This document shows, piece after piece, positions 7,526-26,595 of a DNA stretch of 38,390 nt. The notes under the pieces are model-generated. The model was given only the letters and a program-made list of their open reading frames with translations. It searched no databases and was not told the DNA's origin. Origin of the DNA: a virus; the IMG/VR virus record IMGVR_UViG_3300009164_000167, positions 1 through 38,390 of that record; one strand, given 5' to 3'. Both the position numbers and the translations under genes were made by a program. Each line of letters starts with the position of its first letter. The stretch's first letter is position 1.

Positions 7526-7855
7526 CTATTTATGTTTCTGTTGTTCATTGTATTCTTTGATTGTTTGTTGTACTAGTTCAAAAGATCGGCCACTAAATCC
7601 GCCAACTCGCCAGTAATACGGAGCATAGTTTGTGGTTTTTTGACGATCGTCGTATACGATTGCCACAGTGCCGTCTTCATACCGCAGCCGCCACTGACAA
7701 GTGACTCTAGCTAACATTCCGTCCGTAGGTGGGTTGTCTTCTTCGCCGGGCCCGAAATAGGGGCGCCCAAATATCTTTTCAAGAGCTCGATATGTTGTGT
7801 ATATTTGCCCTTGCTCGGTAAATCTTGTAGTAAACGAAATCTTTGTAAATTTCAT
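7526..7855 (-). CDS. Conserved small phage protein of unknown function
   Basis: A 109-residue protein with a pattern I have seen in marine phage genomes: a short helix with FGRPYFGPGEED, a strand pair around W.LRYEDGTVAIVYDDR, and a WRVGGFSGRS motif before a C-terminal helix. No function is known to me for this family. Its start overlaps the previous stop by four bases (ATGA), so it is translationally coupled as the last gene of the cassette that begins at 12182. A late promoter motif for the following fibre gene overlaps its stop codon. Confidence 0.7.
   Translation of the reverse strand: MKFTKISFTTRFTEQGQIYTTYRALEKIFGRPYFGPGEEDNPPTDGMLARVTCQWRLRYEDGTVAIVYDDRQKTTNYAPYYWRVGGFSGRSFELVQQTIKEYNEQQKHK
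7527..7534 (-). promoter_or_regulatory. T4-type late promoter motif CATAAATA
   Basis: The - strand reads CATAAATA, overlapping the stop of the last cassette gene and 25 bases upstream of the ATG of the fibre gene at 6027-7502. It gives the downstream fibre genes a late start independent of the halogenase cassette. Confidence 0.6.
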
Positions 7856-8586
7856 TTTTTAAAATGCTTGTGATAGAAATCTTTTAGCAGATTTCTGTTC
7901 TGTCTAAAAAATACACTCATAAACAAGTTTCGTTTTTCTATCCACATTTTATCGTTATCGGACATTTCTCTTACAACTAAATCGTAGTTTTTTTCGGATA
8001 GTGGAATTAAATGTCCGATTGGCGTGCCTGCTTTGATAAGTGTTTCTCCTTGTAGTACATTCCAATGAATTTGTAAATTTATTTCTGTACTAACTGCAGG
8101 GTCTAAAATGCCTGCGGCATTTTCAAATGTAAATTCGTCGGGATATGCAATAGGCAACATTAAGAACTTTACACCCTTTGGTGCTATTATATTCCAAGGA
8201 GTATCTAATTTTATAACCTGTTGGTGACTCCAAGGACGCTTAGGGATAAATTTATCAAGACCGGGTTTATGCGTTCCCACAACTTCTTTTCCTCGATAGG
8301 AATTTAATGCTCCCGAAGGTATACTCCACGAAAATGGGCGGGTGGGTCCGTCTGTTCGAATTATTAGATCATGCCATAAAGGAATAATGTACCCGTGATT
8401 GAACATGTCAAATATTCCAGGACATTGAAATATATGTGTCTGTCGAGACTTAGTAAATTTATCTTTGTTGGCGACCCAGTCGTTCTTGGCCGCGGCCATC
8501 CAGTTAGCTCTATATTGGCTGGCTGGTATGATTGGAAATAGATCCGAAAGACCCGGTGCTGCTGTAAAAAATTCAATAGTGTCCAT
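7852..8586 (-). CDS. Unassigned protein of halogenase cassette, possibly DUF6065-like
   Basis: A 244-residue protein with a distinctive pattern: an N-terminal P.IPASQYRANWM, then CPGIFDMFNHGYIIPLW, SWSIPSG, a central DTPWNIIAPKGVKFLMLP, a GILDP turn, and a late TPIGHLIPL. The layout suggests a beta-rich, possibly jelly-roll domain. I tentatively relate it to the DUF6065-type proteins of phages and bacteria, from memory only. No catalytic residues can be named with confidence. It overlaps its upstream neighbour by 14 bases and its downstream neighbour by 4, and lies two genes after the halogenase, which suggests a shared pathway. Confidence 0.65.
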   Translation of the reverse strand: MDTIEFFTAAPGLSDLFPIIPASQYRANWMAAAKNDWVANKDKFTKSRQTHIFQCPGIFDMFNHGYIIPLWHDLIIRTDGPTRPFSWSIPSGALNSYRGKEVVGTHKPGLDKFIPKRPWSHQQVIKLDTPWNIIAPKGVKFLMLPIAYPDEFTFENAAGILDPAVSTEINLQIHWNVLQGETLIKAGTPIGHLIPLSEKNYDLVVREMSDNDKMWIEKRNLFMSVFFRQNRNLLKDFYHKHFKK

Positions 8587-8986
8587 ATGAATACCACTGT
8601 ACAGTTCTGCTAAGTTCTGTTATACCTTCTGCTTTGCACATAAATTTTGTAATGTCGTTGGCATGAATTGCTATTGCAAATGTACTTGGCAGCTCATAAC
8701 CCAATACATAATCTAAAACAAGATATGTCTGAGGACCAACTGTTTCCCAAGAAAGAGGTGCATCGGCAAATATTATATTATTAGTTTTTCTTGTTACCAC
8801 TGACATCTTTTCGTTGCCGTTTTCTTTATGAAATACTATAAGATCTCTATCTTCTAATAATGCATTCATCCAAGTTTTTAATTTCTTTTTGTCTTTTTGT
8901 ACTTTTCTAGCAGTGTAAGCATCTTTAGCTTGTCGTATTGTATTTGTATACAGTACATATTCGCCTAGTGTTGTCTCAGTTAACAT
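8573..8986 (-). CDS. Hypothetical protein in halogenase cassette
   Basis: A 137-residue protein that I do not recognise. It has a basic helical N-terminal half (a KKLKTWMNALLED segment around 35-47) and a beta-containing C-terminal half with FADAPLSWETVGPQTYLVLDY. The end is Tyr/His-rich. An AAGGA ribosome-binding site lies just before its ATG, nine bases after the halogenase stop, and its stop lies inside the next gene. It could be a partner or regulator of the halogenase system; nothing in the sequence decides this. Confidence 0.65.
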   Translation of the reverse strand: MLTETTLGEYVLYTNTIRQAKDAYTARKVQKDKKKLKTWMNALLEDRDLIVFHKENGNEKMSVVTRKTNNIIFADAPLSWETVGPQTYLVLDYVLGYELPSTFAIAIHANDITKFMCKAEGITELSRTVQWYSYGHY

Positions 8987-8995
8987 GTTAAATCC

Positions 8996-10510
8996 TTAAG
9001 AATTATTTTTATACCATTGATCTAAGTAAGCGTAATGATTCGGAAATCGTTTTTTTGCTTGCTCTACTCTATAGTTTTGAACATCAATAAAATATTCTGC
9101 ATATTCGTTTTCGTTTGGTCTGTCAATTTTTTCTAGATTGTCGTAGGCCCCGCCGGCATGTAACACACTGAACCACTGAACAATATTAAACATAGAGCTT
9201 TTACTAAAGTATAGGAATCTTCCCGGACGAGGATAGAAATGACCTAGTATGAATTGTACATCTTCAGGCAGATCTTTGATATCTTGTTGTCTAATGCTTT
9301 GCCAGAATGGTGTATCTGACCTCTTTGAGAAATGATAGTGCGCCCAAACAAATGCTAGAATTTCCATGTTCATTTCATAGAAGCCTCGATTAATTAAATC
9401 TTTGATTGGTTGATTCCATATATTTCTATTCATATTCAGCAAATCGGTTACTGATTTAATCACTGCGGTAGTAAAGGTGATACCTGTTGCTTCTAATGGC
9501 TCTACAAATCCTGCACTGAGTCCTACTGCTACCACATTCTTAACTGCAATTTCTTTATGATACCCGCACTTCATTTTTAAGAATTTTGCCGGGGCCTCAA
9601 ATTCTCCAATTGTTTCTCTTAGTTCTTTTTCAGCGTCTTCGTCGCTGATAAATTTACTGCTGTAAACATAGCCGTTGCCTGTTCTTGTATAGATAGGGAT
9701 AGTAAATCTCCATCCGGCAGTCATTGTAGTTGCTTTTGTATATGGGAAGCATTCAGTTTCCGGGTCTTTAAATTGCGTAGGCATTACTACAGCACGATCA
9801 TTAGGCAACCATTTATCGTAAGATGTAAATGCAACTCCTAGTGTTTTTTCCAATAGTATAGAATTGAATCCACTACAGTCAATATAAAGATCTGCAGAAT
9901 AACTCTGTCCGTTGTCGTCAATTAGTTTAGTGATGCCGTGTATGTCTTTTTCAACCTTGGCAATTCTAGTATCAATATGTTTGACCTTATTGCCTATCAG
10001 TTCTTTAAGAGCATCTAAAATTTCGTATGCAGAAAAATGTACGGCACCGTAGCCTTCGTTGTTTGCGCCAAAGCTAGTGTCTAAATGATCAAACATTTTT
10101 GGACTTAGGTTAGCCTTAGCTAGTTGATAGGCGGGATGAAACTTTGCAAATTCGCTATAGGGTTTTTTAATGAAATAGTCGCTGGTATATAAATCTTCAG
10201 CTATGAACGAACTTTGTAATCCGTCATTGTCTACAAAATAAGGCTCGTCGTTCCATCCGCTGAGTTCTACACCTAATTTAAATGCTGCATTACTGGGTTT
10301 CATCCATTGGGCCGGATTAAGTCCACATTGAAACAAGAACTGAGCTGTCAGTGGTTGTGTTCCTTCGCCGACTCCGATAGGGCCTAATGTAGTATCTTCA
10401 ATTAAAGTGATTTCACAGGGCACTTGTAAATTGTGTGTAAGGTATGCTGCTGACAGCCAACCACTTGTACCACCGCCAAATATAATTATTTTTTGTGTTC
10501 TATTAATCAT
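8996..10510 (-). CDS. Flavin-dependent tryptophan-type halogenase
   Basis: A 504-residue, apparently complete member of the PrnA/RebH-type FAD-dependent halogenases, which use reduced FAD, O2 and halide to make hypohalous acid that halogenates an aromatic substrate. Visible motifs: the FAD-binding GGGTSGW (12-18); GVGEGTQP (46-53); FKLG with Lys78 where PrnA has its essential Lys79; DCSGF (211-215); the WxWxIP-type motif as GWRFTIP (266-272, first Trp followed by Phe); GNGYVYSS (278-285); and GFVEPLEATGI (334-344) with Glu340 where PrnA has Glu346. Length is normal for the family (about 510-540). The start overlaps the upstream methyltransferase gene by 8 bases. A phage homologue, VirX1 of a cyanophage, is reported to iodinate diverse substrates. 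Substrate here is unknown; free Trp, a peptide or another aromatic are all possible. A separate flavin reductase would be needed, and none is seen here. Confidence 0.93.
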   Translation of the reverse strand: MINRTQKIIIFGGGTSGWLSAAYLTHNLQVPCEITLIEDTTLGPIGVGEGTQPLTAQFLFQCGLNPAQWMKPSNAAFKLGVELSGWNDEPYFVDNDGLQSSFIAEDLYTSDYFIKKPYSEFAKFHPAYQLAKANLSPKMFDHLDTSFGANNEGYGAVHFSAYEILDALKELIGNKVKHIDTRIAKVEKDIHGITKLIDDNGQSYSADLYIDCSGFNSILLEKTLGVAFTSYDKWLPNDRAVVMPTQFKDPETECFPYTKATTMTAGWRFTIPIYTRTGNGYVYSSKFISDEDAEKELRETIGEFEAPAKFLKMKCGYHKEIAVKNVVAVGLSAGFVEPLEATGITFTTAVIKSVTDLLNMNRNIWNQPIKDLINRGFYEMNMEILAFVWAHYHFSKRSDTPFWQSIRQQDIKDLPEDVQFILGHFYPRPGRFLYFSKSSMFNIVQWFSVLHAGGAYDNLEKIDRPNENEYAEYFIDVQNYRVEQAKKRFPNHYAYLDQWYKNNS

Positions 10511-12182
10511 TTTTTCTAATTACAACAATGTATAGCCCATTCCACCATTCGTTTGGGCTTTCTAGGGAGTTCAACATCATCTTTTCAAAAGTAACTCGAG
10601 CGCCTACACTGTTAATGCCGGCCTGCGCACCTTCAACAACTGATTGCCAATTTGCATCATCAAATACAATAATACACTCATTGGCTAGAATTGGATAGTA
10701 ATGCTCAACCGCTCGCTTTGTACTTTCAAAATCATGAGGGCCGTCATAAAAAAACATCTCAATGTTGGATGAGAATTGAGAAACATCTGCTTTAAATAAG
10801 TCGCCGTTTAAAATATCTACTTCAGCTAGTCCTTTATGCTTCTTAACATTTTCAATAAATGTTTGAACATTGTTCCTAGGAAGCTGATTTAAATCATTTC
10901 TTGCAGGTTGAATTTGTTCTTTCCAATTGTCAACAGCAATTGCATGTATTGGATTGCCTTTAATAGCGGCACAAAAGGTTGCACCCATTGCGGCGCCCAC
11001 TTCTAAATAGGTGTTTACACCCTTAGCTAGAGAATTTAACAGCGTCTGTACTCTAGGACTGGTAAGACCGGGGATATCTAATCGCATTGTTGGTATTCCG
11101 GAATCTGAAATACATTGTGCTGTATGTTGAACTAATTCAGAATATACCAACTTGGATTTTTTATCGTAAATTTTATCGCAGTATTGGCATGACCAACATT
11201 CGAACTGACAAGTTTTAATTTTTTCACGCCAAATGTTTATTGGCTTTTCTGTTAGGTTTGTTTCTTCTAGATAATTTTCGAATCCTTGAAACAATATGTC
11301 TTTGCCTTCTGCATAGTTTTTAATAATGTCCATAGTTTCATACAGACGAGTGATTGCTTCACGGCCATGCATTTTGATACTATCAATGCCTAGCTCGTCG
11401 ATAAATTGATCCCAGTCTGCTCTCCATGGCGGAAAGTTTGCAGTTTTTAAAAATATTGCAGGGTCTTCAACTTCCCATTTTTTACAACTGGTTCTGCTAA
11501 TAGCATCGTTGAAGTATTGCGGCGTATCCCCGGATCGATTGTTATTGAATTGAAAATGCTCAACCATCATGCTGCAACCACCTACACATCCTTCGTTACC
11601 TAATAGGCTAATTGCAATATCTCTGCCTGTGGTTTCTTTGATGTATGCTTTTGCTTTTTTAATTGTTCGAAGGAGGACATGATCTCGCATCATGTCTCTA
11701 TCAAGATTAATATAATCAAACCCGTAATTAGCAAGATTAACTACTTCCTGTGCAGTGTGTACTTCACGAAGTATGGTATTTTTTACATACAACTCAGGAA
11801 AGGCAGCTTTGATCTGGCCAGTTGCCATCCAATGTGTGTGCGGAATTGTAGCACTACGGATCCCTGCATCATACAATGGTTTAAAATTTTTAATAAACAA
11901 ATCTAAATTTTGTTGTGTGGCAGGGATTTCGATATTATTAAATGTTGCGCTTACTGAAATTCCTAGGGTTTTTTGTATATTCAATGCTGCTTCAATAGCA
12001 CTGAAGTGATACTCCTCTAGTAGAAATACATCTCCCATAGCATCTTGCACAAAAGGTTTGATGCGAGATGTAAAATACACATCTCTAATATAATCTTTGT
12101 ATTGTGAAAGAAAACTAAGGAACTCTGAGTACTGCTCTGGATTTAGTTTGGGATTAAGTGGTACGCTGAATATTTTTCGCAT
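10503..12182 (-). CDS. Fusion: U32/UbiU-V-like domain, Cys cluster and class I SAM methyltransferase
   Basis: A 559-residue two-domain protein. Residues about 1-240 resemble the peptidase U32 TIM barrel (which includes UbiU/UbiV O2-independent hydroxylases and RlhA): alternating strands and helices with AGIRSATIPHTHW, FPELYVKNTILREVHTAQEV, FDYINLDRDMM and the glycine/cysteine turn NEGCVGGCSMMVEH. Cys199, Cys203 and Cys233, plus C-x3-C-x2-C-x2-C at 325-335, could hold an Fe-S cluster as in UbiU/V or bind zinc. Residues about 385-559 are a Methyltransf_24-like SAM methyltransferase: LEVGAAMG (393-400) is motif I, AVDNW (416-420) the acidic loop, FFYDGPHDF (477-485), and IVFDDANW (505-512). It is the first gene after a sigma70-like promoter and overlaps the halogenase start. 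I cannot name the substrate, and I do not know this fusion as a described enzyme. Confidence 0.8.
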   Translation of the reverse strand: MRKIFSVPLNPKLNPEQYSEFLSFLSQYKDYIRDVYFTSRIKPFVQDAMGDVFLLEEYHFSAIEAALNIQKTLGISVSATFNNIEIPATQQNLDLFIKNFKPLYDAGIRSATIPHTHWMATGQIKAAFPELYVKNTILREVHTAQEVVNLANYGFDYINLDRDMMRDHVLLRTIKKAKAYIKETTGRDIAISLLGNEGCVGGCSMMVEHFQFNNNRSGDTPQYFNDAISRTSCKKWEVEDPAIFLKTANFPPWRADWDQFIDELGIDSIKMHGREAITRLYETMDIIKNYAEGKDILFQGFENYLEETNLTEKPINIWREKIKTCQFECWSCQYCDKIYDKKSKLVYSELVQHTAQCISDSGIPTMRLDIPGLTSPRVQTLLNSLAKGVNTYLEVGAAMGATFCAAIKGNPIHAIAVDNWKEQIQPARNDLNQLPRNNVQTFIENVKKHKGLAEVDILNGDLFKADVSQFSSNIEMFFYDGPHDFESTKRAVEHYYPILANECIIVFDDANWQSVVEGAQAGINSVGARVTFEKMMLNSLESPNEWWNGLYIVVIRKND

Positions 12183-12245: not shown

Positions 12246-12791
12246 TTACCATTTCACAACAAACTTGGGATCCCTTGGTCGATTTATAGTATAGGCACTG
12301 CAATCCATTTCAAAATAATTCCTCATCAATATATGCATTTGGTTGACATCATATGCATTATCAATTTCTTCATTTAACTTAACATCTGTACCAACGGGAT
12401 TTTTTGTTCCGTCACAGACTAGGTGATTTTTGATATGTATTTTACAAACTTTTTGCAAGAAAGTTTTAGTATAAGTTTTATCAACATCAGTTAAGAAATA
12501 AGTTTGTTTGGTATAGCCTAGATTGCCACCACTGCTAGGATAAGAAATATCAGCATACGAACTAATGTTTGCATTTACAACAGTGATTTCACCGTCTACT
12601 GAAGTTGCCAACTTGTGAGCCATGGCAATTTGTTCTGTGGTTACATCACCCTTAAGCCAGTCAACTTGAACTCCGTTGGCGACACTTGGATCTACTCTGG
12701 CTATCGTATAATGCCAAAATGAACCGATATCTTGTATCCGGCTGTCACGCCTTGGATCATTACTGGCTATCGTTTCGTAAATTATAAACAT
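12246..12791 (-). CDS. Hypothetical protein
   Basis: A 181-residue protein that I do not recognise. It has an opening strand (MFIIYETIA), a D/N-rich region with WHYTIARVDPS, a helix around TTEQIAMAHKLATS, and a C-terminal part with CKIHIKNHLVCDGTKNP. The N-terminus (YETIASNDPRRDSRIQDIG) might suggest a virion accessory protein, but this is not firm. I choose the ATG at 12791, because an AAGGAG site lies at ideal spacing; the TTG at 12794 is too close to it. The start is inside the upstream gene (32-base overlap). The stop lies 7 bases before the -35 box of the next promoter. Confidence 0.7.
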   Translation of the reverse strand: MFIIYETIASNDPRRDSRIQDIGSFWHYTIARVDPSVANGVQVDWLKGDVTTEQIAMAHKLATSVDGEITVVNANISSYADISYPSSGGNLGYTKQTYFLTDVDKTYTKTFLQKVCKIHIKNHLVCDGTKNPVGTDVKLNEEIDNAYDVNQMHILMRNYFEMDCSAYTINRPRDPKFVVKW

Positions 12792-13605
12792 CAAATATCT
12801 CCTTTTCTTGCGCTAATCCTAGCGAATTATCTTGTATTAATTCTTTTGGTGTGGTAAGGGCGTCGGTGTTAAATGTTCCAACTCCTAGTTGTTTGTCTGC
12901 CGCACTTTGTAATTGTCCTTGATATGCTTGTAATTTGGTTGCAAAATTAACAGTTAATGCTAGAGTCTCAGACTGTTGATCTGGGCTTAACATTAAGATA
13001 GCATCCATGTTACCGCTGTTGATTCTACCATAAAAAATCATATCACATGCAGCCTGCTTGGCTAATCTATTAGTCCAATATTGGCTTTCGTAGACATCTT
13101 CTTCGGCAGTATTCATGATGTCCATGTAAGTTCTGCCAGAGCCGTCTGGGAGCTTTGCTTCTTCAGAAGCCATGAATTCGGTGCATAAGTCAATTAGATG
13201 CTGGCGTTCTAGATACCAGTCTTGCAGTCTGCGCTTGCTGGTATAGCTTAGGCGTTCTCTATTCCATAATTCAAGCTCGGCAAGGCGACGATCTAAGTCG
13301 TCAATGGCTTCTGCAGCCATTCTTCTAAAACGCTCGCACTCTACTTCGTGCTTGGCAATTTCATATTCCATGTTTTCAATGGATTCTTCCTTTGCTTTAA
13401 TTTCAAGAAGCCATTGACGGAACTTGGCAAATGGAGTAATTTGTGCCTGGCCAACAAACCATCTTAGTTTGAATTTTGGGTTGGTCCATTCTTTGTTCAT
13501 TGCAATTTTGATCAAACTCTGATCTTCTTCTGATAGCATACTAACATCGCTGTTAATTTCGCTATTAAAACGACTAGAGTTATATTGCATTCTACGGTCA
13601 GTCAT
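12760..13605 (-). CDS. Coiled-coil protein of unknown function under a late promoter
   Basis: A 281-residue, mostly helical protein. Residues about 65-135 are rich in E, R, L and A with heptad-like spacing (around EYEIAKHEVECERFRRMAAE), indicating a long coiled coil, followed by W-containing helices (LQDWYLERQHL) and a less ordered, Gln/Asn-rich C-terminus. I do not recognise the family. It has an AAAGGA ribosome-binding site and a perfect TATAAATA late promoter motif about 23 bases upstream, so it should be made late, as expected for a virion or assembly factor. It overlaps the next gene by 32 bases. Confidence 0.75.
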   Translation of the reverse strand: MTDRRMQYNSSRFNSEINSDVSMLSEEDQSLIKIAMNKEWTNPKFKLRWFVGQAQITPFAKFRQWLLEIKAKEESIENMEYEIAKHEVECERFRRMAAEAIDDLDRRLAELELWNRERLSYTSKRRLQDWYLERQHLIDLCTEFMASEEAKLPDGSGRTYMDIMNTAEEDVYESQYWTNRLAKQAACDMIFYGRINSGNMDAILMLSPDQQSETLALTVNFATKLQAYQGQLQSAADKQLGVGTFNTDALTTPKELIQDNSLGLAQEKEIFDVYNLRNDSQ

Positions 13606-13640: not shown

Positions 13641-14678
13641 TCATGGACGCCATGACATAGTTCCGGAACTGTTACCACTTTTGCCTTTTGGTTCCATTGA
13701 GCTTGACCCAACAAATCCTCCCCAAGTTGCAAATTGAACTTTGTAGGTTGTATTAACGTGACTTCCGTTGTAAAAACCTTGGCAATATCCCCAATCTCTT
13801 GCACTGACCATATTTTCTTCACCGCTATATGCAGGTTTAGCACCTATAGCATTATAGCTGGCATTGTTTTGATAGTTAGTAATACGCCAATTGGTGCTTG
13901 GATTACCTTCGCGGCCTGCAATGGTTGTTGCCTGTCTAGTCTGTATGTTATGTTGATAAGGATCTCCGGCTATTGCAGTAGATGCTGAACGATCATATGG
14001 TGTTCTTGTGGCAAAATTGAAAATTCTTTCTGTACCACCATAAAAAATACCAAAGTGTTCAGTCCAAGCACCCCAACTGGTGGTGTTGTTACCTGTGCCG
14101 TAGGTTGTGCCCAGTGTTTGAGTAGTCAAGTTGAATTCGTAAATTTGTCCGCTGAGGTAGCTTGACGGTGCAATATAGGCAAAATAGTGTTCTTGTTGAA
14201 TAGTACCAGTGTTAATAGTACTGCCTGGCATGTTGCGAGTATATCCTGTAGTAATCGATACTTCAGTGACCATGTCAAAACAGATGATATTGCTGGCTGC
14301 AACACAGTGAGAACCGCTGGCACCCCATGTATAGTTTCTTGTTAGACTAAATCCGCTGCTTTGATAGTTGTGTCCAGCTTCTTGATTATCACCAAGGTTA
14401 ACAGATGTGTCTGTGGCGAATGTTAATCTGTTGGTATTATTCCATACAACGCTGGCAGCATAACCACCGTGTAGATATCCGGCAACCTGAACATCTCGTG
14501 CTTGGAAAGGTATGCCTACAAACTCCCAGCTGCTGTTTATTGAGCCACCGTAACTTTCAATCATGTTACTTCTAGGATTAAATCTAAGTTGTCCAGCTGT
14601 ACCGCTAGTAGAATTATCTGACGGTAGCTGTAAAAAGCCTGTTGAATTTATTGATGAGTTAGCTGCTAAAATTGCCAT
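13641..14678 (-). CDS. Fibre/adhesin tip protein, paralogue of the glycine-rich adhesin
   Basis: A 345-residue fibre-tip protein. The start is the ATG at 14678 (MAILAANSSINSTGFLQLP), because it matches the N-termini of the two neighbouring fibre genes and sits in a TAATG overlap with the upstream stop; a longer reading frame upstream lies in the other gene. Residues 1-45 are the shared plug (LQLPSDNSTSGTAGQLRFNP). From about 65 to the end the protein is a paralogue of the C-terminal half of its upstream neighbour, with GYLHGGY, WNNTNRL, DTSVNLGD, EHYF, GEEN and a terminal GSSSMEPKGKSG. The repeated GY..GG and W-turns suggest a beta-propeller-like or galactose-oxidase-like fold; this is inference. 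A receptor-binding role is likely. Confidence 0.75.
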   Translation of the reverse strand: MAILAANSSINSTGFLQLPSDNSTSGTAGQLRFNPRSNMIESYGGSINSSWEFVGIPFQARDVQVAGYLHGGYAASVVWNNTNRLTFATDTSVNLGDNQEAGHNYQSSGFSLTRNYTWGASGSHCVAASNIICFDMVTEVSITTGYTRNMPGSTINTGTIQQEHYFAYIAPSSYLSGQIYEFNLTTQTLGTTYGTGNNTTSWGAWTEHFGIFYGGTERIFNFATRTPYDRSASTAIAGDPYQHNIQTRQATTIAGREGNPSTNWRITNYQNNASYNAIGAKPAYSGEENMVSARDWGYCQGFYNGSHVNTTYKVQFATWGGFVGSSSMEPKGKSGNSSGTMSWRP

Positions 14679-16567
14679 TATGATCTCCAGAAGCAAACGC
14701 CAGAACTTGAGCCGGCATGCCCTTTTGGCTCCATGCTGCTGCTGCCAGCAAAACCAGATTCGGTTGAATAATAGAACTTCCAACTATTGTTGTTTTGAGC
14801 GCCATTATATTCGCCTAGTAGGTATTGCCAGTCTTGCCCTAAGCTATAGTTTTCTTCTCCGTTGTTGGTTCTAGGTTTGGCCACAGTACCGCTACTTGTT
14901 CTAGTATACATATTGGTTCTACGAAGATTGTATCCACCGTTATAGCTGCCTTCGTTACCTGCATAGTTATTTGAGTATTTACTTTGTACAGATTTCTGTT
15001 GATGGTATGCACTAGGCTGTCCGCCAAATTGTGCTGTAACTGTTCTTGCAGCATAGTGGAAGTTTCTTGAATCTTCTTCCCAATACCAAGTACCGTAGGT
15101 TTCGTGACTCATACCCCATTGACCTGTAGAGGAAAAGCCGCCTGCTGGGGAAGTTTGTTTGACTTCGTTGGTCAAATTGTATTCTTCAATTTCAGCTGCC
15201 CCGCCGCCCGAAGTGAAAGAAAAATAATGTTCGTTGAATATTGTACCAGAGTTGTATCTATTGTTGGTCAACGCAGTAATCGGCGGATTATATGCAGTTT
15301 CAGTTCGCATGTTAAACCCTTGTACATAATTACTTGCTACCGCATGGCCGTTTCCGCTGCCCCATATGTAGCCAATGTTTAGACCGCAGGAGCCGCTTTG
15401 ATAGTTAAAGGTTCTTGCAATTGCGCCGTCGCCTAGGTTAACCGATACATCTGTTGAATGATAAATTCTATTAACGTTGTTCCACGGACTTGAATCTTTA
15501 TATCCACCGGCCATATAACCAGTGGTAATAACTGTTCTGTATGGGAATGGCATCGACAAGTTCAACCAGCGGCCTTCACCGCGATAGAACTCAAGTCCTT
15601 TTTGTGTGTTTAAGCGGATTGCGCCTTGTCTTAGGTTAACTGCGTCGCCTGTAGTGTATCTAATGATAATAACACCACTGCCGCCCGCGCCACCATAACT
15701 AGGTGATCCACCACCGTTGCCACCGCCACCTCCACCGCCACCGCTGTTTGCTCGTGCAGTTTGATGTGCTGCTAGTGTTGTTGACGGGCCATTGCCGTCA
15801 CCACCGCCACCGATACCACCAAATCCCGGACGGGCATCACTGCTACTTCCGTGGATGCCACCACCACCACCACCACCATAAAAGGTCATTGTGCCGGAAA
15901 TGTTAAATCCTAGTCCAGGACCACCGTCTCCACTTTTACCATTTTGACCCCAAGGCCCTGTGGTAAGTTCCCCACTTCCTGCTTCACGCCAATTACCGCC
16001 GGGGCCGCCTGCACCACCGCCACCACCTGTTGGGTAGCCGTTAGTGCTATCACCTCGTCCTGTACCGCCTCGAAATCCCTGTCCAGCTGTGCCGGCTGCG
16101 CCAACCGTTGAATATCCGTTACCACCGCCACTAGCTCCTGTTGTTGCAGGATATGTGTCCCAGCTGCCGCCACGGCCGCCACCTAGTGCTGTAATAGCAC
16201 CAAAGGTTGATGCACCACCGTTGGTTGCTCTAGGCATCCCACTGTAGCCTCCCGGATTATATTCACCAGTTCCGCCTACACCTACTGTATATGCTATGGT
16301 GCTGCCTGCTGTAACCGCGTAGCCTTCACGATAAAGAACGCCACCACCACCACCACCACCACCTACCCAGCAGCCACCACCACCACCACCACCAACTACA
16401 AGTACATCGACTTGTGTAACGCCTGCTGGAACTGTCCAGTTACCGCTGCCTGTTGCGGTCAACGATACTACAGTCCAAGCTGGCTCTGTTGGGCGGGCGG
16501 CACTGGTTCCAACTGGTAGTTGTAGATAACCAGTTCCTCCAATTGTTGTACTTTGTAAAATCGCCAT
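14678..16567 (-). CDS. Glycine-rich adhesin/fibre tip protein
   Basis: A 629-residue protein in three parts: a short plug (MAILQSTTIGGTGYLQLP), a glycine-rich domain (about 30-310) with many Gly runs of 6-9 and the flanking strands WTVPAGVTQVDVLVVGGG and GSGVIIIRY, and a C-terminal domain (about 315-629) paralogous to the protein at 13641-14678. The glycine-rich architecture resembles known Gly-rich domains of phage adhesins, including the polyglycine stacks of T-even-like gp38 tips, although it is not the same protein. It probably contacts host surface receptors. The coding strand contains several (GGT)n tracts. Its stop overlaps the next start by one base. Confidence 0.8.
   Translation of the reverse strand: MAILQSTTIGGTGYLQLPVGTSAARPTEPAWTVVSLTATGSGNWTVPAGVTQVDVLVVGGGGGGGCWVGGGGGGGGVLYREGYAVTAGSTIAYTVGVGGTGEYNPGGYSGMPRATNGGASTFGAITALGGGRGGSWDTYPATTGASGGGNGYSTVGAAGTAGQGFRGGTGRGDSTNGYPTGGGGGAGGPGGNWREAGSGELTTGPWGQNGKSGDGGPGLGFNISGTMTFYGGGGGGGIHGSSSDARPGFGGIGGGGDGNGPSTTLAAHQTARANSGGGGGGGGNGGGSPSYGGAGGSGVIIIRYTTGDAVNLRQGAIRLNTQKGLEFYRGEGRWLNLSMPFPYRTVITTGYMAGGYKDSSPWNNVNRIYHSTDVSVNLGDGAIARTFNYQSGSCGLNIGYIWGSGNGHAVASNYVQGFNMRTETAYNPPITALTNNRYNSGTIFNEHYFSFTSGGGAAEIEEYNLTNEVKQTSPAGGFSSTGQWGMSHETYGTWYWEEDSRNFHYAARTVTAQFGGQPSAYHQQKSVQSKYSNNYAGNEGSYNGGYNLRRTNMYTRTSSGTVAKPRTNNGEENYSLGQDWQYLLGEYNGAQNNNSWKFYYSTESGFAGSSSMEPKGHAGSSSGVCFWRS
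16341..16393 (-). repeat. (GGT)n trinucleotide tracts in adhesin gene
   Basis: Two uninterrupted tracts, 16341-16363 and 16374-16393, encode the Gly runs of the adhesin. A third, shorter tract lies at 15858-15879. Each is a multiple of three in repeat unit, so slippage would change Gly number without breaking the frame. Confidence 0.85.
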
Positions 16568-18681: not shown

Positions 18682-21600
18682 TTAGTTTAAGAAATAGCTT
18701 AATGCAAGTGGCGAGCCAGTTAGGCCGCCGGTGAAGTTTACTGTTGCATTAAAGTTGATAGTTCCACCTGTCACGTTAGTAATTTGGTTTGTTCCTATCA
18801 AAATGTCGCCAGCTGTTACGCTGTTAACAATCAAGCTCGCACCGCCGCCGCCAATTTGGCTTGCAATGTAGGCTTTAATAGCTCGTTGTGTCGGTACTAC
18901 CGAATCGCTGTCCGCTGTAAAGAACGGATCTGTTGAGAATTCAGTAATCGCTGCACTTGCTCCGCCTAGTGACAAGTTGCCCAAGCTAAGTTCTTGCAGT
19001 CCTGAAATATTAAATGCATCAGCATTCAATGTAGCAATACCAGTTGACTGTTCAATAGTAAACAAGTCGCCGACTCGGAAGTTACCGTCTTGGTCCGTTG
19101 ATGTAAAGAACACTCGTCCACCGTTGCTTTCAACTGCCTCGTTTGCCTGGACTGGGGCCTGCGTAGGATGGTCAGGGTAATTTGTTGTCCCAACTCCGCC
19201 TGTCCCAATGTCTAAGAAGTCGTGTCCAGTTAATCGAACTTGACTGTATCGAATTCTAGTTGTGATTGCTGTTCCATTTGCAAGATTGTCTGAAACTTTT
19301 AGAATTGGACTTACTTGGAAGAACGCAGTATATGCACCGTCGTATTCGCCTCTAAAGCTGACCACGCTAACAACTTTGTAGGTTATATCGCTGCCTGCAA
19401 ATACCAAGTTAGCACCAGGTGCTGGTCTTGAACTAATTCTTCTAACAGCAACATATGCACCGTCTTGGAAGAAGTCAGCATAGCCGTCTCCTGTATCAAT
19501 TTCAGCACTACATGTTTGATACCCAGTACCACGGTTAACAAACGATGGGTTAGCCAATACTCCGTCACCTAATCTTACTGTGGTTGGTGCTTCATAGATG
19601 TTGTTAGGGTCTGTGATTGTAATTGTTGGTGCGCTGGCGTAACCAGATCCTGGTTCAACAATACGAATTATTGCAATTTTCTCACTTGAAACATATGCAC
19701 GAGCCTTTGTTGTAGCGCCACAGAATACTTGACCTGCTACAGTACCAGTACCGGCACCAACAGCAGCAAATGATCCTATTCGCTGCGGGTTACCATGCGT
19801 AATGGCAGCAAATCCGCTTGCGGCTGCGCCTGTGGTTCTTGAAGTCCAATGTACACCGTCTGGGCTGCTTGCAGCCTGTGTAGTTGTACTAACTGCGTAG
19901 AACATACCTTGACCGTAGGCAATTTTTGTCCAAGTTGCAGAAGCTGGCAATGTACTTGCAGTCCAACTAGTTCCGTTTAAGCTGTAGGCTGCTACTGTAG
20001 ATCCTGCGGTGTTGGAAATTGCTACGAATCTACCATTGCCCCATGATACAGCATTCCATGCACTGCTACTTGGCAATGTTCTAGAAATCCATGTAACACC
20101 ATCAACTGAACTTGCGGCTGCTGTTCCGCCTGACTTAACAGCAACAAACAATCCCATACCGTAGGTAATTGCAGTGAATCCTGTTGCAGGTAATGCACCT
20201 GTTAGATCCCAGGTTTCGCCGTCTAAGCTGATTCTAACAGTGGTAGTGTCGCTGGCAATTGCTACAAATCTGCCTTCACCGTAGGCCACATCAACCCAGG
20301 TCGCGCTGGTTACCATAGTTGATGATGACCATGTTATACCGTCTTCAGAATATGCACCAGTTGTATTTGCACTAGTTCCTGCTACTGCAACAAATCTAGT
20401 ACTGCGATTTACAGACGATCCATCTTCAAACTGTCCAAATGCCAGGGCCTTCCATGCTGCTCCGCTTGGCATCAAACTAGTTCTTGTGGTCCAACTTGTT
20501 CCATCTTCACTGGTTGCTCCAATAATGCTACCGCTTCTTACGGCAACAAATCTACCGCCGAGTCCGTAACCTTCAAAATCAACTGCTTGAATTGCTCCAG
20601 TTACTGAGTTTACGCTGGTTATTGTAACTGTGATATTGTTGGTCGGTGCTAGGCCTCCAACACTTGTACCAAGAATTGTAATAGTTTCAAGTCTTGTGTA
20701 ACCAGTTCCACCGGCCTGTACTGTTACTTGATATTTGCTACCGTTTCTAACCACCATAAAACTAGCACTTAGACCAGCTCCAGAATAGGTTCCAGTAACG
20801 CTGGTATAGGTAGTTGCAGTGTTTCCGTATGCAACGGCTGTCCATGCACCGCTGGTTGGCAATGTTGTAGCTGCCGCAGAGTATGTAGGGCTTGTAAAAC
20901 TGATTCTTGGTTCAATTAAGTATGAACTTGAAGAGTCAGGAGAAACAATTGTTGTTCCAGGTACTTGGTGATCCCAACCACCTGCACCTGTTGTTTCTTT
21001 AATTACTGCTGCAATTTTAGTACCAGCATCGTAGGTGTTGATAATTGCATATTGACCAATACCATTACCTGAAGTGATATGCAGTACCATTCCAATATAA
21101 GCTGTGCTTAGTTGGTTGTCGGTGGCTGACAGTGTAATAGTAGTAGAAGATCCGTTTTGCGCAGTACCTGTATTTGTTACATAACCAAAGCCACCTTGAT
21201 TTCCGTCAGCTTCGGGCGCTGCTGTACTATCATCAACGTTGTCAATCATACGCACTTGATATACCGCATCGTCACGGAATTCATCTTGATAAGCTATGGC
21301 GTTGTTACCTGGGCCAATCAATAACCAAGCTGCTTCAGTATATTCGTTACCAGCATGGTCAAATTCGTATCTATAAATTGCATCACTGTCGGTGGTCACT
21401 GTACCAACTACTGATTTGTATTGATATCTATTGTCAACAATCGCTGTCTTGGTTGTTTCAGTTGCGTCAAAACCTTCTGCTACAGATCCAAAGTCACCAT
21501 AACTGTTGTTGCCGTTGGTACCACGAATACGACCACCGTTTTCTGACAGGTAACCAATGTGTGAATAATACGAGAATACCGAAACAAGTTCTGCTCTAGC

Positions 21601-24600
21601 ATTATTTGTAACCCATGCGCCAATACCATCACTGATCAATTGTGTGAAGTCGTTGGATACAAAGGACTTGTTACCACCATTGTGTAAAGAGCCGTCGATC
21701 TTTTGACCAATCGCAGCATTACCAAATGTAGCACAGTTCTGAATGTATGGTGAACGAGCAGTAATCCATGTGCGGAAGTCTGCTGGGCCCCAACCTGGAT
21801 CCAAACTTGCATATGCTCCTGAGGTTACACGACTTGTACCGTATGCGTTAGGAGGTGTTAGATCTCCTTCTAGACCTCGCAATGTCATATTACGAAGACC
21901 AGTGCCGTTGCGTAGATAGTACATGTCTTCTTCTTGACTGCCTGTTACTGCATTTGCATAGTATCGTGCAACAAACATAGATTTGTAATTTGAAGTGTAT
22001 TTTAAATCCCACTTCAATGCGTCAATGTATGTTCCAACATCTCTTGCACACAATTCAGTATTATAATACAATGCCACAGTCATTGAACCGCTAGCATTAG
22101 CTGAAATATCTAATGCTGTTGCAGTGTTTCGTGTAGTTGCAATTTTGAATGTTGTAGAACTCACAACATCTTGTATATAGTATGTTGTTCCAGCAGTTAC
22201 GCCACCAAATGTTGTTCCAGTAAATCTTACAGCAACATTTCTCTTCATCCAACTTGTATCGCTGCAAGTGAATACATCAGTTGCGGCTGTGGCTGCTGTA
22301 ACTGTATCGGTATATGTGTCTGCAATGTATGCACTAACTTCAGCAACAATAAAATCTCTGTTGCGTTCTAGTTGTAGTGCAGCATAGTCTTTGTTTCTTT
22401 CAACAGTTTGACACATGTCACCTTCTCTACTTCCACTGTAGACAATAGCGTAGACATCGTCCATTAGAGTATTGATTCTAGCAATAGCTGTTGCATTACT
22501 TCCAACATTGGCAATTGCTTGAGTGCGTGTATATTCTAATGATGCAAGAGTCACTTGTTTGATAATTGTTGATTGATCAAACAACTCAGAAGCAGTTAGT
22601 CTTAGGTAGGCATGCGCTGCTTTAATTGATTGATAATTTGTGTTGAACATGAAGTCATATCCAACTGCTTTCAATACAATTGTTGCATCTCTTTCTGCTT
22701 TAGCATGATTGTAAGTAAAATCGCTGTAGTTGTCAGAGATATATTGTAGCGTATCCTTAACAATATCAGTTTTGTCAGTTGCAAGAGTACCTAGAGCTGT
22801 TTGAATACCAGCTGATGCCCAAGTAATGCTTGGAAGGCTTTCTGCAACTAATCCACTTAGGTTACCTGCTGTGGCCACTGTGGAAATATTGCCGCACAAT
22901 GTTGTCATGCGTGTTGCCTCAGTAGCACTTGCTGCTGTACCGCTGGTATCTTGACCAGCATAAGTTTCACGAACAATCTGCGCTGTGATTACACCTAGTT
23001 GTGTGTAAGTAGTTCCGCTGTTAACTGATTCAATTCCAACGCCTGTGATGTTATTGAACAATGAGCGACAGAAGTTACGGGTAGCAATGTTGCCACCGTA
23101 GTTAACATCGTAGGCCAATGCATCAATTGCGTAGCCTAGGTCACGCTGGCAAAGTAATTTTTTAGCTGCTGATAGGGCAACATATCCAGGAACGTTAGCA
23201 GTTAGCCATGTTACCATAGTACTGATAATGAATGCACGGTTGGTAACCAATTGTGCTCTAGCGTTGGTAAAGTTAGCTGTGCCTGTACTGGTGTAGACTA
23301 ATGCATCAGCATTGGCTACTCCGTTTTCGATGATATCAACAATTTCAACATAAGCAGCGTTGGCTCTTGATACTGCTGTTGCATCGCTGGCCACTGATGC
23401 AGCTACTCGACCTTTAATATAATTAATTGAACCAATCTCTTGGTCAAGTTGGTTAGCTGTTACTTCACCTGCTTGACTGCGTAGATAAGACAGTCCGTTT
23501 TGCACTGCCCAGAAGTTAGAGCCAAACGCTGCATCGTAGTATGCTGCATCTACCAAGTAACCACTGTCTCTGCGGCAAAATGCACTATTGTATCTAAAGC
23601 TGCCAAAGTTTGTATTTAGATAGTCAACAACATTGGTAACTATAGTTTCGTTGGCTGAACTCAATGTACTATATGCACTGATTAGTGCAGTTGTAGAGTT
23701 AACACCGTTTGCGGGAGTTGGATCAGTTAATGTAACTGTGGTTCCTACAGCAGAAGGTCCAGTATTAATAATAGTAATAATTTCGTCTAGTCTTGCGCCA
23801 ACAAATGTTGCTGTTCCAGCTGCACCTGCTGTTCCTCTAAATTGAACTACTGTTGTTTGAAGAGGAGTTACTGGTGTATTAACCGCAATGGCCTGCAGTC
23901 TATCTTTCAAGAATGCTAGTGCTGCCAGTGTAGGTGCTTTAATAGAAGTTGGTAATTGTGGTTGTGTATTGTCATCACCGTCATAATAAGCAAGACCGGC
24001 TTTAACGCTTAATGCATTTCCGCCATAGGTCAAGTCATAGATTACTGCATCTACGATATATCCAGCATCTCTTCGAGTTTTTACTTTACCATAACTCAAA
24101 GTAGGATAAGTTGCCACCATGTAAGCAACAACTTCTTCTTGGAAAAACTTTTTGTTTTCTTTGATTAGTTTTCTAGCATTACCGTAACCTGCTAGATAGC
24201 TGACATTGTATCCAGTTGGGTCAGTTAAACTGGCAAGATGCATAGTACCTAGTTTAAAATCTGCCTGTTGCTTCATTAGCTTGACTAGTCTTCCAGTTAC
24301 AGTAGCTTGTGTAGCATCAGAGAACGGAGCATTAATGCTTTGGTCTAGACTATTTCCGGTAGTTCGAGTAATTGTAGTTCCTGTAACAATGTCTTCAACA
24401 ATTGATTGAACATGATTGAAAGTGTCAACAGTATAGTATGCATCGGATATGTCAATTAAGCTGCCTGCTGCGGAAACTGTTACTGCTCGTTTTTCGTCGC
24501 CTAGTACACAAACATCAGTTGGAACAATCATTGGCAATGTTTCAGAATAAGATCCTGTTTTAACATTCAACAAGGATGCTGGTACAGTACGATCCGGTAG

Positions 24601-26595
24601 ATTAGTTGTATTGCCATCTGTTAGTGCAGTTGTTACTATGCCAACTAAATCCGTAATAGTTGCTAGAACTCCTGTTTCTGCAACTAAGTCAGCGTCAATG
24701 AATTGAGGAACAATAGCAGTAGAATTATCGCCGTTTAATACTTGATAGTTTACCTGTGGTGCTTGGTTATTTAGAACATTTCCAATCACGGTTAACATGT
24801 AATTGTAGGCTGCTACATCTTCATCTTTTTGTTCTGCAAGGCGTGAGTATGTGCCGGTACCGTTTTCGTCAAAGGCTGTGGCAAATAGTATACCGCCATC
24901 TAAGGCATTAATGTATGATAATGCTGCTGCAAGAGTTTTTAAATTTCCACCGTGGCCGATATCGTGTATGATTCTGTCAACAACAAATCCTACATCGCGC
25001 TCGCATTTAAATTCGTCATAGACAAAAGAAGTAGTAAATGGCGATGCATTAGAAATTATCTGTCTTGCAATCCATTCTGTTACTTCTCGTTGAATGAATA
25101 CGCGATTCATTTCTAGTAGGCGCTGAGCGGCAGGGTTGCGAGGACCTTTTTCGATTTGCTCTAAGGCATAACGAACAGTCTTCCATGGCTTGTCTGAAGT
25201 TCTTCCGTGGATTGGAGCTGGTAAATCAACTCCGTGATTGCCAACATAATAATTTTGATCAACAACTCCTAGATAATCCCAGTCAGGATTGCCACTGGAA
25301 GTAACTTTTAGAACCTGTCCTTCAATACCAATTGGCAGTCTTGCAGGGCCTTGATCACCGTTATAATAGACCATATCACCTGGATTGGTCATAACAGCAT
25401 ATTCATTACCTACATTAAAGATATTCCAATAAACACCTTCGGTGTCTCCTGAAGGGCTGCGGGTTGAATCTGTAAATGTTGTGCTGTCGTCATCGTTGCT
25501 GGTATGGTTCTGAACGCAGATGTAGACGTTGGACATGTATCTAACTGCGTCGCCTAGATAATAAGCGGTACTGTTTGCCCATTCACCTTTCCAAAGAACA
25601 CCACTGTTTAATCTTGTCCAGTAGGTTGCACTAGGCGGAGTTTGTCCACTGTGGTCTAATATGCATAGATAGGTATAGCCGTTTAATCTAACAACTTCAC
25701 CTACTTTATAAGATGTTGCATTGCTCCAGTCAGTTGTAAAGCTAAATCCTTTGCTGAATAAATCCCAGTTTGCAGTAGATGTAGATGGAACTGCGGCAAG
25801 ATTGACTGTGGTTGCAACATATTGGTTACCACCGTAGCGTACAATATCGCCTGGCTGGTATGATGTTGCACTGCTCCAAGTATTTTCAAATTGCAGGCCT
25901 TCAACAAAAGAAGACCAATTGTTAATATCTACACCAAAGTTCGATGTAGAAGTATGTAATAGAGTACAGATGTATAATGTTCCGCCATACTTAACAACAT
26001 CGTTAACACGATAGCGTGTTAGAGCTGTCCAGGCATCGCGATATTCAATACCGCGATTGAATACATCCCATTTTCCTAGGTCAGTTTCTAGACCCAGCGA
26101 AATAGACGCTGCTGAAGTGTGGTAAGTGTTACAGATATAGTTGATACCACCATACTTAACAACATCATTAACTTTGTAGCGAGTAGACACAGTCCATGTG
26201 CCTTTCCAATCAATACCGTCGGCAACATTATCCCACTTAGAAAGTGTGCTGTCTGCTAGATTTAGATCTGCTTCCAAGCCTGATGCTAAGGTTGCTGCGG
26301 ATGTGTGAGGAATACGGCAAACATATAAGCGGCCACCGTACTTGACCATGTCGTTGGTCTTATAAGTTGTGCCAACTGCCCAGTCGTTTTCCCATGTAAA
26401 GCCGTCGCTTAGTTGATTCCACTTAGAAGGAATTGCATCTAAGTCTGTGTAGAAGTCGGCAGATGCTGCGTGACCTGTAATACAGATAAACACTTTACCG
26501 CCATACTTGACAACGTCATCTTTGTAGTATGTGGTGCCAGTCGCCCAGTCACTTTTCCATACAAATCTAATTCTACCTAATTTAAATTCTGCCAT
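18682..26595 (-). CDS. Giant tail structural protein with W-repeats, six RD repeats and Asp-box propeller
   Basis: A 2637-residue protein, a paralogue of the adjacent 1816-aa protein. Residues 1-410 hold seven repeats of about 50-60 aa (W...T.Y...D.V.YGG..Y.C...H), similar in look to CBM5/12 carbohydrate-binding modules. At about 468 a pectate-lyase-like beta-helix start (KPWKTVRYALEQ) is followed by long insertions. The RD repeat (C.RD.GY.vDA..YD..yGgN) occurs six times, near residues 531, 841, 1007, 1149, 1299 and 1516. About 1610-1700 is the strongly conserved SLHNGGNKS..SNDFTQ..SDG segment. Six Asp-box-like turns (S.DG..W) at about 2029-2251 suggest a propeller. About 2490-2520 carries FTSTDQDGNFRVGDLF, a hallmark of T4-like marine phage tail proteins. 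A late promoter motif lies 29 bases upstream. Probably a large tail or baseplate-attached fibre. Confidence 0.85.
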   Translation of the reverse strand: MAEFKLGRIRFVWKSDWATGTTYYKDDVVKYGGKVFICITGHAASADFYTDLDAIPSKWNQLSDGFTWENDWAVGTTYKTNDMVKYGGRLYVCRIPHTSAATLASGLEADLNLADSTLSKWDNVADGIDWKGTWTVSTRYKVNDVVKYGGINYICNTYHTSAASISLGLETDLGKWDVFNRGIEYRDAWTALTRYRVNDVVKYGGTLYICTLLHTSTSNFGVDINNWSSFVEGLQFENTWSSATSYQPGDIVRYGGNQYVATTVNLAAVPSTSTANWDLFSKGFSFTTDWSNATSYKVGEVVRLNGYTYLCILDHSGQTPPSATYWTRLNSGVLWKGEWANSTAYYLGDAVRYMSNVYICVQNHTSNDDDSTTFTDSTRSPSGDTEGVYWNIFNVGNEYAVMTNPGDMVYYNGDQGPARLPIGIEGQVLKVTSSGNPDWDYLGVVDQNYYVGNHGVDLPAPIHGRTSDKPWKTVRYALEQIEKGPRNPAAQRLLEMNRVFIQREVTEWIARQIISNASPFTTSFVYDEFKCERDVGFVVDRIIHDIGHGGNLKTLAAALSYINALDGGILFATAFDENGTGTYSRLAEQKDEDVAAYNYMLTVIGNVLNNQAPQVNYQVLNGDNSTAIVPQFIDADLVAETGVLATITDLVGIVTTALTDGNTTNLPDRTVPASLLNVKTGSYSETLPMIVPTDVCVLGDEKRAVTVSAAGSLIDISDAYYTVDTFNHVQSIVEDIVTGTTITRTTGNSLDQSINAPFSDATQATVTGRLVKLMKQQADFKLGTMHLASLTDPTGYNVSYLAGYGNARKLIKENKKFFQEEVVAYMVATYPTLSYGKVKTRRDAGYIVDAVIYDLTYGGNALSVKAGLAYYDGDDNTQPQLPTSIKAPTLAALAFLKDRLQAIAVNTPVTPLQTTVVQFRGTAGAAGTATFVGARLDEIITIINTGPSAVGTTVTLTDPTPANGVNSTTALISAYSTLSSANETIVTNVVDYLNTNFGSFRYNSAFCRRDSGYLVDAAYYDAAFGSNFWAVQNGLSYLRSQAGEVTANQLDQEIGSINYIKGRVAASVASDATAVSRANAAYVEIVDIIENGVANADALVYTSTGTANFTNARAQLVTNRAFIISTMVTWLTANVPGYVALSAAKKLLCQRDLGYAIDALAYDVNYGGNIATRNFCRSLFNNITGVGIESVNSGTTYTQLGVITAQIVRETYAGQDTSGTAASATEATRMTTLCGNISTVATAGNLSGLVAESLPSITWASAGIQTALGTLATDKTDIVKDTLQYISDNYSDFTYNHAKAERDATIVLKAVGYDFMFNTNYQSIKAAHAYLRLTASELFDQSTIIKQVTLASLEYTRTQAIANVGSNATAIARINTLMDDVYAIVYSGSREGDMCQTVERNKDYAALQLERNRDFIVAEVSAYIADTYTDTVTAATAATDVFTCSDTSWMKRNVAVRFTGTTFGGVTAGTTYYIQDVVSSTTFKIATTRNTATALDISANASGSMTVALYYNTELCARDVGTYIDALKWDLKYTSNYKSMFVARYYANAVTGSQEEDMYYLRNGTGLRNMTLRGLEGDLTPPNAYGTSRVTSGAYASLDPGWGPADFRTWITARSPYIQNCATFGNAAIGQKIDGSLHNGGNKSFVSNDFTQLISDGIGAWVTNNARAELVSVFSYYSHIGYLSENGGRIRGTNGNNSYGDFGSVAEGFDATETTKTAIVDNRYQYKSVVGTVTTDSDAIYRYEFDHAGNEYTEAAWLLIGPGNNAIAYQDEFRDDAVYQVRMIDNVDDSTAAPEADGNQGGFGYVTNTGTAQNGSSTTITLSATDNQLSTAYIGMVLHITSGNGIGQYAIINTYDAGTKIAAVIKETTGAGGWDHQVPGTTIVSPDSSSSYLIEPRISFTSPTYSAAATTLPTSGAWTAVAYGNTATTYTSVTGTYSGAGLSASFMVVRNGSKYQVTVQAGGTGYTRLETITILGTSVGGLAPTNNITVTITSVNSVTGAIQAVDFEGYGLGGRFVAVRSGSIIGATSEDGTSWTTRTSLMPSGAAWKALAFGQFEDGSSVNRSTRFVAVAGTSANTTGAYSEDGITWSSSTMVTSATWVDVAYGEGRFVAIASDTTTVRISLDGETWDLTGALPATGFTAITYGMGLFVAVKSGGTAAASSVDGVTWISRTLPSSSAWNAVSWGNGRFVAISNTAGSTVAAYSLNGTSWTASTLPASATWTKIAYGQGMFYAVSTTTQAASSPDGVHWTSRTTGAAASGFAAITHGNPQRIGSFAAVGAGTGTVAGQVFCGATTKARAYVSSEKIAIIRIVEPGSGYASAPTITITDPNNIYEAPTTVRLGDGVLANPSFVNRGTGYQTCSAEIDTGDGYADFFQDGAYVAVRRISSRPAPGANLVFAGSDITYKVVSVVSFRGEYDGAYTAFFQVSPILKVSDNLANGTAITTRIRYSQVRLTGHDFLDIGTGGVGTTNYPDHPTQAPVQANEAVESNGGRVFFTSTDQDGNFRVGDLFTIEQSTGIATLNADAFNISGLQELSLGNLSLGGASAAITEFSTDPFFTADSDSVVPTQRAIKAYIASQIGGGGASLIVNSVTAGDILIGTNQITNVTGGTINFNATVNFTGGLTGSPLALSYFLN

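Follow-up and report, generated by a model that had tools for sequence, protein, structure and literature searches.

What does a single protein with a cysteine-rich barrel at one end and a methyltransferase at the other do for a T4-like phage, and to which family does the barrel belong? The question is raised by IMG/VR record IMGVR_UViG_3300009164_000167, a 38,390-base virus record with T4-type genes, analysed here over its whole length (the window). The gene lies on the minus strand, at the coordinates given in an original prediction made from the letters alone. Profile comparisons indicate that the N-terminal domain is a homologue of the U32 proteins, in a branch marked by seven cysteines, and the C-terminal half is a class I S-adenosylmethionine (SAM) methyltransferase. 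The features of the gene are as follows.

10503–12182, minus strand: the whole fusion gene, with an ATG start and 559 amino acids (aa), U32-type barrel plus Methyltransf_24; PHROG 1458/T4-GC 354.
11148–12182, minus strand: N-terminal domain, residues 1–345, a triosephosphate isomerase (TIM) barrel, assigned to the seven-cysteine U32 branch from an AlphaFold2 model, a match to structure 5d88 and hhalign comparisons.
11574–11588, minus strand: C199-x3-C203 (NEGC..GC), invariant, aligned to the C-x3-C(P) of cellular seven-cysteine proteins.
11484–11486, minus strand: C233, invariant, 29 residues past C203, a spacing as in the archaeal proteins.
11178–11210, minus strand: the C325-x3-C329-x2-C332-x2-C335 knot after the barrel, which cellular seven-cysteine U32 proteins share (C-x3/4-C-x2-C-x2-C).
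10506–11087, minus strand: C-terminal domain, residues 366–559, a class I SAM methyltransferase (Methyltransf_24), with motif I E394/G396/G400, D418 and a putative metal triad D480/D508/D509.

The fusion is no one-off but a gene family well established among phages. It was found by tblastn in 123 of 50,697 phage records, all of them Synechococcus or Prochlorococcus cyanophages, and in 121 over at least 80% of its length; at least 539 IMG/VR stretches, from many samples, encode relatives. Its carriers, T4-like phages that include cyanophages, number in the hundreds and come from the sea as well as from other environments. The protein matches PHROG 1458 over residues 49–557 (E 2.5e-163), which spans both halves. 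PHROG 1458/T4-GC 354 is thus the fusion's own family, to which those resources assign no function or domain. The annotation is ‘hypothetical protein’ in the 60 phage records listed, and orthologues in P-HM2, P-SSM4 and S-ShM2 are annotated T4-GC 354 hypothetical protein. Literature on U32 proteins in cyanophages, on UbiU among auxiliary metabolic genes and on U32 peptidases in phages yielded nothing on the fusion family, subscription journals being mostly outside the scope of that search. The suggestion that the fusion may be new therefore holds only in part: the gene is widespread and for years databases have listed its product as a hypothetical protein, yet no paper was found in which the domains or the function are recognized. 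The identity of the domains, the seven-cysteine U32 branch and the coupling to a halogenase or 2-oxoglutarate (2OG) oxygenase gene appear to be unreported.

Chance can be excluded as an explanation for the open reading frame (ORF). Conservation was assessed with an alignment of 63 rows, in which relatives are 42–83% identical to the window protein. The seven cysteines that had been singled out (199, 203, 233, 325, 329, 332 and 335) lie at exactly those positions and are invariant in 63/63 aligned relatives; three more cysteines are at 357, 404 and 503. Also invariant are E197, E208, H209, K270, H272, G273 and R274, and, in the methyltransferase half, G396, G400, D418, D480, D508, D509 and N511, with E394 replaced by D in three rows. 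SAM motif I (LEVGAAMG, 393–400) and the DD pair (508–509) are likewise where they had been seen. The rate of amino acid-changing substitution (dN) to close relatives is 0.11–0.46 and silent sites (dS) are saturated. Both halves are therefore under selection, since amino acid change is limited while silent change is saturated; no value of dN/dS was obtainable, dS being saturated. Judged by distances to close relatives, conservation is stronger in the barrel than in the methyltransferase.

The U32 relationship of the barrel comes to light through cellular proteins. With the single sequence, neither Pfam, NCBIfam nor a phmmer search of the PDB gave a match for the barrel, and PF01136 does not match the window protein above the cut-off; among 53 relatives there is one match, at E 0.0087. 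Serine acetyltransferase matches at E 0.1 were put down to chance. A PF01136 search of archaeal genomes gave weak matches (E 4e-9 and 2e-6) that are proteins of about 400 aa. These have C-x3-C-P, a third cysteine 29 residues further along, the sequence ‘FK.SGR’ and, at the C-terminus, C-x4-C-x2-C-x2-C, which is the phage pattern. Further members came from archaeal, Chloroflexota and Cloacimonadota genomes, the phylum names of these cellular groups resting on the titles of loci L165–L167, through which the groups were reached.

L242 745–1947 (minus strand), L243 1249–2400 (plus strand), L252 and L254: archaeal seven-cysteine U32-like proteins.
L259–L261: seven-cysteine U32-like proteins, Chloroflexota.
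L267: seven-cysteine U32-like protein, Cloacimonadota.

Aligned by hhalign, the phage profile scores 97.4% (E 1.5e-11) against the archaeal seven-cysteine profile and 98.75% (E 1.5e-16, 308 columns) against all cellular members, with the cysteines in register. Canonical U32 in turn scores 98.65% (E 4.9e-16) against the cellular profile. In controls with the archaeal profile, the reversed profile reached 0.4%, the best of 30 column shuffles 4.5% and a methylenetetrahydrofolate reductase (MTHFR) sequence 0.09%. Of 29 arbitrary cellular proteins, the five that scored highest against the phage profile were U32 proteins. The archaeal profile has a single significant match in the PDB, 5d88 (E 3.5e-5), and in one metagenome-assembled genome (MAG) it finds both canonical U32 proteins and a phage N-terminal domain (G002:C231, E 1.1e-4). 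The phage barrel carries the pattern of the branch, C-x3-C ... C ... C-x3/4-C-x2-C-x2-C. The cellular proteins share this arrangement in nearly all members, L260 lacking the strict pattern; they differ from the fusion in having no methyltransferase domain, in being only about 17–20% identical and in their gene neighbours. No functional work on the seven-cysteine U32 branch was found in the literature, and plasmids gave no match to an archaeal seven-cysteine protein.

The barrel is also found by itself in phages, at L167 91–1203 (370 aa) and L194 5001–6104 (368 aa), and PHROG 36869, a phage ‘hypothetical protein’, corresponds to the barrel alone. Beside the L167 barrel lie ORFs whose sequences suggest a dCTP deaminase and a homing endonuclease. 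L165, L166 and L167, in MAGs labelled Euryarchaeota, Dehalococcoidia and Cloacimonadota, are the only matches to the fusion among the genome contigs. A cellular origin for the close homologues L166 and L167 was rejected, their neighbours being phage-type genes; they appear to be phage contigs that ended up in MAG bins, or prophage contigs. L165 is a 3 kb fragment. DNA motif scans for NEGC-x3-CP in 125 and 194 genomes returned only the known phage contig and chance matches.

The predicted fold agrees with this picture. The AlphaFold2 model, built with the 63-row alignment, has a mean predicted local distance difference test (pLDDT) score of 91 and a predicted template modelling (pTM) score of 0.84. 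Residues 1–345 form eight barrel strands, and a Rossmann-type domain follows. A TIM-barrel half had been expected over residues 1–240; the barrel stands, and its extent has to be revised, as it reaches about residue 345 and takes in the C-x3-C-x2-C-x2-C knot. When the full model was compared with the PDB, the compact barrel that matched best was 5d88 (U32 protein Mk0906; TM-score 0.71 on target, root-mean-square deviation 3.9, 283 columns), whose U32 ‘peptidase’ domain is a single domain without the four-cysteine knot or a methyltransferase and has about 10% identity to the phage protein. It should be pointed out that the fold alone does not decide U32 identity, since a barrel-only search is ambiguous, with MTHFR structures first and 5d88 fourth. 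MTHFR identity was rejected, the MTHFR sequence scoring 0.09% against the phage profile. A barrel of some other family would have told against the original prediction; 5d88 is instead the cleanest barrel match, with the profile bridge to U32 beside it. A radical-SAM reading of C-x3-C-x2-C was rejected as well: the motif comes after the barrel, is in full C-x3-C-x2-C-x2-C, and the same knot is C-terminal in the cellular U32 proteins. Among viral models, the first four matches are unnamed proteins with 25–52% identity, and the three at 40% or above probably belong to the fusion's own family, to judge from that identity. After these come a ‘Peptidase’ of Escherichia phage OLB35 (TM-score 0.72) and, lower, macrocin O-methyltransferase-like proteins.

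The methyltransferase half is more readily recognized. In the METHYLTRANSFERASE, residues 393–509 match Methyltransf_24 of Pfam (E 1.2e-10, 42.6 bits vs a cut-off of 26.3), as do 27 of the 27 relatives tested, at E up to 0.1. In the PDB fold search, this half of the full model matches the O-methyltransferases 5x7f and SafC. The best solved match of its profile is YrrM/TrmR (5zw3, E 1.4e-4), and the Staphylococcus aureus relative MW1564 is found at E 0.0035. In the YrrM match, at E 1.4e-4 with chance matches in the same list at E 0.001, the residues opposite D480, D508 and D509 are D, D and N. Such residues bind metal in the O-methyltransferase family, and the three would be a putative metal triad here.

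The gene neighbourhood bears on function. In the window, the plus strand encodes a virion structural protein and the tail sheath, and the minus strand has the genes for tail fibres and baseplate-like proteins; the fusion gene sits downstream of the fibre genes. Neighbours were compared in 89 loci non-redundant at 90% identity, 86 of which have a downstream gene. That gene encodes a tryptophan halogenase in 29 loci and a 2OG-Fe(II) oxygenase in another 31, together 60/86, and the overlap with the fusion gene is commonly 4 nucleotides (nt) or slightly more. PHROG 1604 is present in 72/89 loci, and the following genes flank the fusion in the window.

8996–10510, minus strand: tryptophan halogenase (PF04820, E 6.4e-96), whose start overlaps the fusion gene end by 8 nt.
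12246–12794, minus strand: the ORF immediately upstream, with related proteins in 44 loci.
12760–13605, minus strand: PHROG 1409, a conserved upstream neighbour (79/89 non-redundant loci).
13641–16567, minus strand: two PHROG 1417 proteins, the tail-fibre end of the module (PHROG 1417 in 73/89 loci).

The halogenase is probably active, since its sequence contains GxGxxG, an F-K site and EPLEATG, with WRFTIP where WxWxIP would stand. A PHROG 7084 protein (7852–8586, minus strand) and a 137-aa protein (8573–8986, minus strand) form a mini-operon with it. The halogenase is also present in 51/60 PHROG 7084 loci and in 40/40 loci of the 137-aa family, and the two proteins are possible halogenase partners. 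The PHROG 1417 paralogues (13641–14783 and 14678–16567, minus strand) are consecutive, with frames that share about 100 nt; as the first begins with TTG, its true start may be later. In the isolates P-HM2, P-SSM4 and S-ShM2 the PHROG 1417 position is occupied by the ‘sericin 1 precursor-like’ T4-GC 351. The fibre region has two giant minus-strand ORFs, 18682–26595 (2637 aa) and 26641–32091 (1816 aa).

Because the gene for the fusion either overlaps or lies next to one for a halogenase or oxygenase, beside tail-fibre genes, the fusion is probably part of a set of phage enzymes for chemical tailoring. Hydroxylation followed by O-methylation would be the best-supported mechanism. The barrel would bind an iron-sulfur cluster via C199, C203, C233 and one cysteine of the 325–335 knot (or else the knot might hold a second metal) and would add a hydroxyl group to a substrate without O2. 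The C-terminal domain, presumably Mg-dependent and SAM-using, of the catechol-O-methyltransferase/TrmR type, would then methylate that hydroxyl. Production of the fusion is probably translationally coupled to that of the tryptophan halogenase or the 2OG-Fe(II) oxygenase. Judging from this coupling to an oxidative tailoring enzyme and from the place behind the tail-fibre genes, the target would most likely be a product of the phage module, with a fibre protein or another virion protein ahead of RNA or a quinone. We hold the bifunctional tailoring enzyme as a whole tentatively, at slightly less than an even chance. A bolder form, in which the Fe-S U32 hydroxylase-methyltransferase, the tryptophan halogenase and 2OG oxygenases make up an operon that modifies side chains of tail-fibre or virion proteins by hydroxylation, methoxylation and halogenation, is speculative and rather unlikely.

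Several points weigh against the tailoring enzyme and the U32 assignment beneath it. Compared directly by hhalign, the phage domain scores only 2–3% against UbiU, UbiV or canonical U32 profiles, which is not significant, and the U32 link depends on the cellular intermediates. The marks of characterized U32 hydroxylases include a 4Fe-4S cluster and an O2-independent hydroxylation that depends on prephenate. These enzymes have the cysteine motif CX6CX15CX3/4C (PMC6747719; PMC11574389) and an essential Glu eight residues before the first cysteine, E162 in TrhP and E161 in RlhA (PMC6599085). Neither that motif nor its UbiU/UbiV variants (CX6CX16CX38C/CXnCX12CX3C) occur in the phage protein, which has C-x3-C-x29-C and the C-terminal knot. 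The position matching the Glu is about S192, nearly invariant, and the invariant E197 sits two residues before C199. With the cysteine motif and the Glu missing, the N-terminal domain falls, on sequence grounds, outside the UbiU, UbiV, TrhP and RlhA subfamilies, and of the proposed ‘U32/UbiU-V-like’ domain only the U32-type barrel stands. The methyltransferase is not indispensable, since the N-terminal domain stands alone in the phages L167 and L194. The TrmR link is moderate at the sequence level, because evident chance matches to coronavirus nsp3 appear at E 0.001 in the same PDB list. Lastly, Chloroflexota seven-cysteine proteins adjoin acyl-CoA ligase and/or FabG-type genes, and ketosynthase-type genes are among the neighbours of some cellular members (functions read from their sequences); the three cellular proteins so placed point to small molecules over protein or RNA.

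As to the substrate, the location by the fibre genes favours a virion protein, the likeness to TrmR an RNA, and the acyl-CoA ligase/FabG-like neighbours in Chloroflexota a small molecule. The second possibility would make the fusion a one-protein version of the TrhP1/P2 and TrmR pathway, with hydroxylation and then O-methylation of a tRNA or rRNA base (e.g. U34 to 5-methoxyuridine, mo5U), in host RNA or phage tRNAs. The U32 proteins TrhP and RlhA hydroxylate RNA, and TrmR/YrrM, the closest solved sequence match of the phage methyltransferase domain, methylates 5-hydroxyuridine (ho5U) 34 and is encoded in one operon with the U32 proteins TrhP1/P2 in Bacillus (PMC6599085). The likeness is suggestive because YrrM methylates a hydroxyl that the U32 proteins YrrN/YrrO help install. 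A fusion precedent exists in oomycetes and a diatom, where YrrM is joined to an unrelated hydroxylase, YceA (TrhO) (PMC6599085). The Bacillus subtilis system resembles the phage protein in pairing a U32 hydroxylase with a catechol-type O-methyltransferase in sequence, the phage activity being presumed; however, TrhP and TrmR are separate proteins, and the catalytic Glu and CX6C pattern of TrhP are not kept in the fusion. There is also no tRNA gene in the 38,390-nt window, no tRNA-binding domain was identified in the fusion protein, and the gene lies between fibre genes and a halogenase or 2OG oxygenase gene, not with tRNAs. An RNA modifier is unlikely.

Doubtful to a similar degree is an enzyme that acts during infection on a metabolite such as a quinone or pigment, hydroxylating and methylating it in the way that UbiU/UbiV and UbiG treat ubiquinone. 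UbiU/V provide the precedent: they bind 4Fe-4S and hydroxylate before O-methylation (PMC6747719). Like the phage protein, they have a U32 TIM barrel with conserved cysteines where the seventh barrel strand ends, and their product is methylated later by another enzyme, so that hydroxylation followed by methylation would be common to both, presumptively so on the phage side. The cellular neighbours described above speak for a metabolite too. On the other hand, UbiU/UbiV are a heterodimer without a fused methyltransferase, neither a UbiT-like lipid-binding partner nor a lipid or quinone biosynthetic gene is among the annotated neighbours, and the conserved place is the virion/fibre region, not the phage metabolic genes. 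A barrel that no longer hydroxylates, with cysteines that bind zinc or a structural cluster, and that only holds the methyltransferase substrate, would suit the lost Glu and cysteine spacing and a knot that could be a zinc site, but it is quite improbable, since the barrel appears to have a function of its own: it is the better conserved half, keeps its seven invariant cysteines with E197, E208, H209, K270, H272 and R274, and occurs without the methyltransferase in L167 and L194.

The bifunctional tailoring enzyme gives a testable identity to a widespread ‘hypothetical protein’ of T4-like cyanophages, and points to a seven-cysteine U32 branch in archaea, bacteria and phages. If it is correct, a hydroxylase and an O-methyltransferase that occur naturally in one chain would lend themselves to studies of how C-O bonds are formed by U32 enzymes without O2. 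The cyanophage halogenase, known as prnA and reported in 2010 and earlier, has had its role only guessed at (PMC2984593), and the coupling of the fusion to it could help find its substrate. An operon that tailors fibres, were it to prove real, would be a virion modification system not described before.

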